Assembly: GCA_021234155.1 (NCBI GenBank) | Contig: JAJEKV010000002.1 | Span: forward strand, 25,970,617-26,034,616 | Length of the DNA: 64,000 nucleotides | Origin: Isoetes taiwanensis | Taxonomy: Eukaryota; Streptophyta; Lycopodiopsida; Isoetales; Isoetaceae | Reading direction: 5' to 3' | Part shown: in pieces, positions 3,612 through 4,736 of the stretch | How positions within the stretch are numbered: the first letter of the stretch is position 1 | How the letters are laid out: the number at the start of each line of letters is the position of its first letter | Made by a program: the position numbers and the translations under genes | Notes under the pieces: generated by a model | Told to the model about the DNA's origin: nothing | Databases searched by the model: none | What the model saw: the letters and a program-made list of their open reading frames with translations, nothing else

Positions 3612-4736
3612 ATGATAAGCCCAAATACCAAGTCCTCGCCACGAAAGCGTAAACTCAAAGATGCCGAAGAGAAACTGAAGGCCGACATGGAGAGGCGACC
3701 TAGATACTACCGAAATCTAGAGAAGAGGCAGAAGAAGGAGGAAAAGGCAAAGAGGAAAGAAGAGAAGGCAAAGAGGAAGGAGGAAAAGGCAAGAAAGAAA
3801 GCAGGGAAAGCAGCCGTGGAGGCCGAAGAAGACCAATGGCGCGAGCAAAGGACGAAGACCAGAGAAGAACACGACAGGAAAGGCAAAGGGGTGATGACGG
3901 ACGAGCCCCCGCCGAAGAAGAAGAAGAGCTTGGTCGGCATCGTCATCGGCGAACGACCCGAAGGCGACCAACCTTCATCGTCGTCGGAAGATTCAGGTGA
4001 TGCGCAGAACTTCTTGGAGGAAGCACTTGTAGGAACTGGAGAATCCTCGCAGAAGCAGCAGAACCGTCATCCCGAGCCAGAAGAAGCCCAGGAAGAGAGC
4101 CAACCTCCAGCCCAGGACTTGACAGAACCACAGGTTGAAGTACCCCTGCCGTTGCCTCCACCGGTTCCGCAATGGCAAGAGGCGAGGAAGTTAGATGCAG
4201 ACAAAGCGGCCGCAAAGAAGTCGAACAAAACGGCCAGGGACTCGTACACTTTAGGGCCCGAAAGGAGATATAAGAAGGAATTGGCAGACTACGAGGCATA
4301 CAAAAAGATGCATAATGAGTACAGTGCCTACTACAATGCGAACATGGTGAAATTCATTGAAGGAGGGCGACCCACACGCAAGATGGCTCAGCTGAAACCC
4401 CCACCAGAACTTCCGGACCCCCCATGTAAGCCCATAAGAAGATCCCAGAATTCAGTGTTTGCAAAAGCCTTGCGAGAAATCCGACACTTCCAACGAAGTT
4501 ACGGATTTCTTATCCCCAGGGCTGCATTCCAGAGATTTGTCCGAGAAATTCTGTGGGAATTCGACTCCAGCAAGCGAGTAACCAACGACATGTTACTCGC
4601 TTTGCAAGAAGCAGCAGAGATGGAGGTAGTGCAACACTTCGAAGACTCATTGGCATGCACACTCCACGCAAAAAGAGTCACTGTGACTCCAAAGGATATG
4701 AGACTGGCAAAATACATCAAGAGGACAGATAAATAG
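3612..4736 (+). CDS. ORF1: retroelement-associated histone H3-fold protein with charged N-terminal extension
   Basis: Open frame of 374 codons. Residues about 10-105 are Lys/Glu/Arg-rich with repeats of EEKAKRK (coiled-coil-like and nuclear-localisation-like, also PPPKKKK). Residues 110-200 are acidic, Pro/Gln/Ser-rich linker. Residues 276-374 (4437-4733) match the histone H3 fold without gaps: ALREIRHFQ (alpha-N), FQRFVREI (alpha-1), LALQEAAE and FED (alpha-2), then HAKRVTVTPKD and a terminal LAKYIKR (alpha-3). By hand about 43 of 86 positions equal canonical H3. The canonical tail ([10 protein letters not shown] type) is absent. Loop 1 has canonical length, so it lacks the longer loop of many CENH3 proteins, although LIP before alpha-1 and LLALQEAAE recall CENH3. 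It lies upstream of ORF2 and gag on the same strand. The fold is seen directly. Deposition into nucleosomes, centromere targeting or a packaging role are untested ideas. A captured host H3 variant is the alternative origin. Confidence 0.88.
   Translation: MISPNTKSSPRKRKLKDAEEKLKADMERRPRYYRNLEKRQKKEEKAKRKEEKAKRKEEKARKKAGKAAVEAEEDQWREQRTKTREEHDRKGKGVMTDEPPPKKKKSLVGIVIGERPEGDQPSSSSEDSGDAQNFLEEALVGTGESSQKQQNRHPEPEEAQEESQPPAQDLTEPQVEVPLPLPPPVPQWQEARKLDADKAAAKKSNKTARDSYTLGPERRYKKELADYEAYKKMHNEYSAYYNANMVKFIEGGRPTRKMAQLKPPPELPDPPCKPIRRSQNSVFAKALREIRHFQRSYGFLIPRAAFQRFVREILWEFDSSKRVTNDMLLALQEAAEMEVVQHFEDSLACTLHAKRVTVTPKDMRLAKYIKRTDK

Follow-up and report, generated by a model that had tools for sequence, protein, structure and literature searches.

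Within the 64,000-nucleotide stretch of the Isoetes taiwanensis genome analysed here (the window), the open reading frame ORF1 is very likely a genuine gene of a chromovirus (Ty3/gypsy), encoding an H3 variant composed of an ARTKQTARK tail tip, a charged stretch of about 295 residues, and an H3 fold. This assignment draws on sequence comparison: ORF1 lies between LTRs ahead of a second extra frame (ORF2) and gag-pol, many of its genomic copies are open, it is under purifying selection in the fold and in the N-terminal part, and the same elements encode a chromodomain integrase. The element containing ORF1 (element 1) is laid out as follows.

3388-3589, plus strand: apparent Ty1/copia 3' LTR, with termini placed by eye, copia domains, and a junction matching tail codons of other copies
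3612-4736, plus strand: ORF1 of element 1, 374 aa, intronless, start lost; charged N-terminal part, then C-terminal H3 fold
4467-4721, plus strand: H3 histone-fold domain, alpha-N to alpha-3, from Pfam, PDB, canonical H3 alignment, model, and Foldseek
4880-4957 and 5094-5171 (span 4880-5171), plus strand: two copies of a hairpin-forming repeat, 77% alike, 3' of ORF1
5428-6984, plus strand: ORF2 of element 1, internal stops at 6094, 6103, and 6610; relatives follow ORF1 in genome copies
6963-11880, plus strand: broken gag-pol of element 1, with protease, RT, RNase H, integrase, SH3_Tf2-1, and a chromodomain remnant
12593-14155, plus strand: 3' LTR of element 1, 1563 bp; the same LTR lies upstream of ORF1 in all five copies compared (whole or near-whole length, 83-94%)

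Profile, structure, and alignment comparisons identified the C-terminus of ORF1 as a histone H3 fold. Pfam Histone (PF00125) matched the whole of ORF1 at 5.9e-21 and its last 99 residues alone at 7.8e-22, a significant outcome for the profile search that the sequence-only reading of this DNA had proposed, and two further family copies matched at 4.9e-21 and 6.4e-22. PDB H3 chains matched from 4.5e-21 over 86 residues, with all three alignments shown ungapped, and 44 of 85 residues were identical to canonical plant H3 (P0009), again without gaps. The sequence-only reading, which had described the last 99 residues as gapless H3 at about 50% identity, was therefore right about the fold and the absence of gaps but overestimated its extent, since the clear match spans 85-86 residues (4467-4721). 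An AlphaFold model of the last 120 residues, based on a 30-row alignment, reached a mean pLDDT of 86 and included four H3 helices, i.e., the alpha-N and alpha-1 to alpha-3 expected of a core histone H3. When this model was searched with Foldseek, the best 50 of 416 matches at E <= 0.001 were histone, nucleosome, or chromatin entries; because the rmsd of the matches was high, the helices of this lone-chain model seem to be packed differently from those of the nucleosome. Protein searches with the window's damaged ORF1 (76 matches scored among the 7994 candidates sharing most words, and 55 matches among 61 candidates in a second search) yielded no full-length relative, the best local alignments covering at most 32% of an ORF1 of which the histone part makes up about 23%, and none of the 10 pattern matches from a viral-contig scan was confirmed. 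Five proteins (P0044, P0033, P0063, P0066, and P0020) have an H3 fold at or near the C-terminus behind long unrelated N-terminal parts, and could conceal further mobile-element histones.

ORF1 is multiplied across the source genome (1.66 Gb), where at least 110 scored copies, full or partial, were found along with 11 short N-terminal pieces, the former count being a lower bound because the scored copies come from 31867 loose candidates. Counted from the table, 49 of the 110 had no internal stops, and 20 stop-free copies, fetched with 10 kb each, form the basis of the context, tail, and residue counts given here. The motif TGGTATCAGAG, which we take to be a primer site of tRNA-Met type, lies directly after the LTR end (...CACAA) upstream of ORF1 in 13 of these 20 copies, and with one mismatch in one more. 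Downstream of ORF1, an ORF2 match was present in 19 of 20 copies (at only 32-41% in L012, L015, and L016), gag in 16, and RT in 13 within the 10 kb fetched. Paired LTRs with a target duplication, the latter read from the printed context, were recovered in two of four copies tried (L026, LTR pair 95.7% identical with GGCAA on both sides; L027, 88.5% with AACAT on both sides), while the second LTR was absent from the fetched stretch in L009 and L022. An LTR pair, a target duplication, and a primer site thus surround the H3 ORF in L026 and L027, as they do in a second element of the window (element 2, see below). The integrase chromodomain was detected in two of three family copies tried (Pfam, 1e-9 and 1.2e-9), the third copy being broken, so that the chromovirus arrangement of a chromodomain after the integrase is seen in family copies and in element 2, and as a remnant in element 1.

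The LTRs, primer site, gag, and duplications together show that this is a family of LTR retrotransposons in which the H3 ORF comes first, followed by ORF2 and gag-pol. The gypsy link drawn by the sequence-only reading is confirmed by this genomic context, and its suggestion to check whether copies always sit upstream of a gypsy gag was met by a gag in these 16 copies and by no gag match in the other four. These four (L012, L014, L015, and L016) have an open H3 ORF with no gag match in 10 kb and possibly form a non-autonomous subfamily still carrying the H3 gene; in L015, LTR-like repeats at 1575-2268 and 8118-8883 flank a short interior. An H3 captured by a hAT-type transposon is ruled out, as the H3 ORF is carried inside LTR elements. 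Membership in the Tcn1 clade of chromoviruses, described as mostly devoid of a tRNA-type primer site (excerpts of PMC6317226), does not agree with the presence of TGGTATCAGAG in element 2 and in 13 of 20 copies.

In element 1 itself, the Pfam order RVP_2, RVT_1, RT_RNaseH, Integrase_H2C2, SH3_Tf2-1 corresponds to the PR-RT-RH-IN order of Ty3/gypsy behind gag, with the gag (Retrotrans_gag, Ty3_capsid) and rve matches falling below Pfam cut-offs, and ORF2 matched no Pfam family above cut-off. Among the best 120 of 6650 matches to the integrase, the top identity was 49%, with the fern Adiantum nelumboides (44-45%) and a number of angiosperms among the named matches. The two hairpin repeats downstream of ORF1 had RNA fold z-scores of -4.2 and -2.5, and Rfam and tRNA scans gave no matches. 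In 14 of 20 copies, a repeat of ~80 nt or longer was also observed on both sides of ORF1 (about 2930-3010 and 4750-4840), and the hairpin repeat around ORF1 is possibly an RNA signal of the element.

The window copy of ORF1 is damaged at its start. Its stop codon occupies 4734-4736, and an in-frame TAA at 3603-3605 precedes its ATG. A copia element that runs off the left edge of the window sits in the ORF1 start, between element 1 and its own 5' LTR, and is marked left of ORF1 by gag_pre-integrs (1e-7) and RVT_2 (9.3e-7, below its cut-off). To the right of the copia junction the sequence corresponds to tail codons of other copies, the codons after the insertion being briefly out of the family's frame. 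Because this insertion broke the start, the window ORF1 is without an H3 tail tip, and the replacement of the tail by a long extension, as described in the sequence-only reading, holds for the window copy only: 19 of 20 stop-free genome copies start like the H3 tail tip (ARTKQTARK), 14 of them exactly. The 374-codon frame is indeed open beside disrupted neighbours, as that reading had noted, with three internal stops in ORF2 and six in gag-pol (7890, 9246, 9944, 11068, 11146, and 11644) in addition to frame changes. However, the 2158 neighbouring codons contain about 12 breaks by visual count, which translates into a chance of 0.125 of finding none in 374, and since the start is damaged as well, the open frame of the window copy is weak evidence; we rejected it as proof of selection, and it may be luck.

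The stop-free genome copies reveal the organization of the full-length protein. Measured from the first Met, 18 of 20 copies encode 386-394 residues (355 in L025 and 448 in L027). Among the 19 copies with a tail, K4 is kept in 18 and K9 in 19, and residue 10, immediately after K9, is V or P, not S. The canonical H3 tail beyond the first nine residues, including K27, is absent from the family and is replaced by the charged stretch between tip and fold. The length of this stretch is 295 residues in most copies (17), 287-288 in two others, and 267 in a single cut copy, compared to 37 residues for the same interval in canonical H3. Tip and fold are similarly conserved (mean majority shares of 0.97 and 0.96), and the stretch between them less so (0.85). 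In H3 numbering, C110, H113, R116, L126, R83, K115, and T118 are unchanged in 20 of 20 copies and D123, R69, and R72 in 19; these presumably include H3-H3' contacts and DNA contacts of H3. In addition, R63 is changed to P in 19 of 20 copies, and K79 to D in all 20. Since the contact residues are kept in nearly all copies, the fold should pair with H4, and we infer that the family protein would pair with host H4 and enter nucleosomes. The charged stretch, along with the position of ORF1 as the first gene ahead of gag, would also suit a nucleoid protein that uses its fold and basic stretch to condense the RNA or cDNA of the element inside the particle or the pre-integration complex. We consider this role unlikely, given that H3 on its own depends on H4 to form a stable pair and Pfam gave no other histone in the element frames tested, and that packing has no need of a conserved tail tip.

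Comparison of these copies with one another points to strong purifying selection on both the fold and the N-terminal part. Across 21 sequences, chosen as stop-free and separated by high dS (0.6-0.8), the median dN/dS (Nei-Gojobori) was 0.052 for the fold (209 of 210 pairs, median dS 0.64) and 0.154 for the N-terminal part (210 pairs, with codons that include the damaged start of element 1, one of the 21 sequences), and no pair reached a dN/dS of 1 in either part. Because the copies were picked as stop-free, drift was simulated with stops barred at similar dS, and gave medians of 0.58-0.79 (0.58-0.77 for the fold), the lowest fold value being 0.21 in about 600 runs. The sequence-only reading had seen in the open frame a hint of either recent selection or chance survival and had proposed dN/dS across copies as a check; selection is what this check supports, through the genome copies and not through the window copy's own frame. 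A captured H3 copied along without function has precedents in fungal hAT elements (excerpts of PMC6710886) and would fit the damage to both window copies, but it is contradicted by a fold dN/dS of 0.05 at a dS of 0.64, against 0.58-0.77 without selection, and by the 49 stop-free copies among the 110 scored, which together leave such a passenger extremely improbable.

The origin of this H3 was approached through its tail tip, its loop 1, and phylogeny. The tip points to canonical H3, because P0105 and P0112, which we take to be CENH3-like by their motifs, begin with MARTKHSAPK and MPETRN, respectively. The trees favoured CENH3 instead: in both, the element 1 fold was placed beside P0105/P0112 with P0019, albeit with weak support (0.82; 78 for the wider group) and from 95 sites with long branches in a hand-picked set of 36 of 131 histone matches plus the two window elements, none dropped for coverage. 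AU values were 0.02 (three plant H3s) and 0.06 (six canonical-like sequences) for element 1 with canonical H3, and 0.48-0.60 for element 1 with the CENH3-like pair; AU controls without element 1 gave 0.43-0.44, and SH values were 0.09-0.24. The fold also has RHFQ, LIP-A-F, and R-x-T in common with P0105 and P0112, which would fit a CENH3-derived targeting factor taking the element to centromeres. Yet the likeness to plant CENH3 is limited to these few fold residues: relative to canonical H3, loop 1 is gapless in ORF1, whereas P0105 and P0112 have two and one additional residues, and the tip is that of canonical H3. Weakened by these two features, and with a tree built on few sites, long branches, and hand-picked references, such a CENH3-derived targeting factor appears quite improbable, and we do not call the ORF1 protein a CENH3.

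A second H3-like sequence in the window belongs to element 2, with the following features.

42304-54547, plus strand: element 2, a complete LTR element with paired LTRs, CTCTT on both sides, primer site, purine tract, and chromodomain
42304-43823, plus strand: 5' LTR, preceded by CTCTT at 42299-42303
43825-43835, plus strand: primer-binding site TGGTATCAGAG, one base past the LTR (1.1 matches expected by chance window-wide)
45390-45684, plus strand: H3-like pseudogene, split between two frames and interrupted by a stop
50495-52445, plus strand: pol, 53% identical to element 1 over 222 integrase residues
52216-52380, plus strand: chromodomain (PF00385, 2.9e-13) at the integrase end
53288-54547, plus strand: 3' LTR, with a purine tract ahead of it and CTCTT (54548-54552) after it

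Aligned with each other, the two LTRs of element 2 show 89 differences in 1234 bases, in addition to indels, and the 3' LTR starts with TA, not TG. The gag of element 2 is hardly recognisable, and 4.9 kb separate the H3 sequence from the matched RT, compared to 4.7 kb in element 1. A tblastn of the window with 77 histone queries (E 0.01) detected two places only, ORF1 (77 of 77 queries) and a region near 45376-45700 (70 of 77), while weaker chance H3 matches were also seen in another search. The last 35 residues of the remnant match Pfam Histone at 1.1e-7, and its similarity to the family is about 36% over 53 residues. The first piece scored best with element 1 (50 vs. 37-43) and the last piece with canonical H3 (100 vs. 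66); AU values were 0.28-0.40 for element 2 with canonical H3 and 0.39 for element 1 with element 2, and the trees paired element 2 with P0083 (0.77 and 86) from 69 usable sites. N-terminal similarity between the two elements was not significant (29 pieces, best p 0.019). The element 2 H3 may be an old sister of the family or a separate capture.

In plants, retrotransposons are kept under control by H3 methylation, and elements with a chromodomain choose their sites by reading H3 marks. For the H3 variant described here, we tentatively propose that the protein would be placed on element or target DNA, that K9 on its long arm, once methylated by host enzymes, could be the place where the element's own chromodomain integrase docks, and that this docking could steer integration or keep new copies together. 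Such marking of chromatin for its own integrase would be the simplest joint explanation of the kept tip and the chromodomain. Nearly as likely is a decoy or anti-silencing role, the main alternative, in which the protein enters element nucleosomes or soaks up host H3K4/K9 enzymes and readers via its tip, and thereby weakens silencing. The K4/K9 tip being as conserved as the fold, with the stretch between more variable and the remaining H3 tail, K27 included, absent, would be consistent with this role, as would a bracovirus H4 that enters host nucleosomes and acts via its extended tail (excerpts of PMC9145170). However, docking fits the conservation of the tip equally well, and we regard a decoy as possible but somewhat doubtful. 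Of comparably doubtful standing is the broader notion of a chromatin address system, in which the element H3 variant with its K4/K9 tip on a long arm would join host H4 in nucleosomes and be recognised by the element's own integrase chromodomain, the element thus writing and reading a mark that sets insertion and silencing. The V or P after K9 may weaken chromodomain or kinase recognition. This residue, the R63 and K79 changes, the four copies without a gag match, the stop-free choice and high dS of the copies compared, and the low similarity (about 36%) of the element 2 H3 to the family count against our favoured explanation of ORF1 as a chromovirus H3 gene.

Histone genes in mobile or parasitic DNA, and extra genes in chromoviruses, are both known, and what appears to be new here, judged by the literature searched, is the LTR retrotransposon as the carrier. 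H3L genes with ESTs were reported in hAT DNA transposons of Pyrenophora tritici-repentis (excerpts of PMC3538342), as was an H3 in a hAT of Pseudocercospora fijiensis, of which all copies except the original are inactivated (excerpts of PMC6710886). As here, an H3 gene was captured and multiplied by a mobile element in both fungi, but those are DNA transposons, whereas the present element is RNA-based and carries a chromodomain, its H3 is under selection, and the H3 tail holds a long insert. The statement in the sequence-only reading that no LTR retrotransposon with an H3-like protein was known therefore stands for LTR elements, none having been found in the literature searched (open-licence papers, by titles and abstract starts), though not for mobile elements at large. 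Plant LTR retrotransposons can include extra ORFs beside the polyprotein genes, such as eORFs, among which the eORF-5'F class is forward and upstream as ORF1 is (excerpts of PMC6317226), and an AlkB-type domain in an orchid Gypsy (excerpts of PMC9289625); excerpts of these two surveys name no histone domain, and of the 15 extra domains from a screen of 121 angiosperm genomes, the nine named in the results section include no histone. Single viral histones are likewise encoded by parasites, some with long N-terminal extensions, but the bracovirus H4 and the H3-like proteins of large DNA viruses come from DNA viruses (excerpts of PMC9145170), and the stem "retrotranspos" is absent from the text of that review (PMC9145170). 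By analogy, the bracovirus H4 is an earlier example of a histone that is encoded by a parasite and acts in host nucleosomes by way of its tail (excerpts of PMC9145170).

Compared to other chromoviruses, the family shares domain order, chromodomain, and a primer site presumed to be of tRNA-Met type, and differs in the H3 gene and the second extra ORF (ORF2) added ahead of gag. With this family, the range of parasite-encoded histones would reach beyond DNA viruses and DNA transposons and take in LTR retrotransposons, and the H3 tail is seen to tolerate an insert of several hundred residues. A selected H3 copy suggests that the element influences the very chromatin by which it would otherwise be silenced or positioned, and a family with its own selected H3 variant, bearing the tail tip that chromodomains read, would make it directly testable whether mobile DNA alters the nucleosomes on itself.

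Several other features were observed in the window. On the minus strand, 57798-62723 includes an RVT_1 fragment (57798-58388, 1.1e-10) and, at 59517-62723, frames that seem Penelope-like on visual inspection, with no Pfam match in the two pieces searched. An Aladin beta-propeller fragment lies at 19867-20325 (PF25460, 2.1e-15, 57.1 bits vs. a cut-off of 171.1), and the regions 28908-28985, 29929-30257, and 34354-35888 contain numerous self-matches that overlap one another on both strands, a pattern like that of a short tandem repeat. Finally, an ORF for a NIF-type phosphatase at 40773-41537 (PF03031, 4.5e-48) is probably a host gene or a retrocopy.
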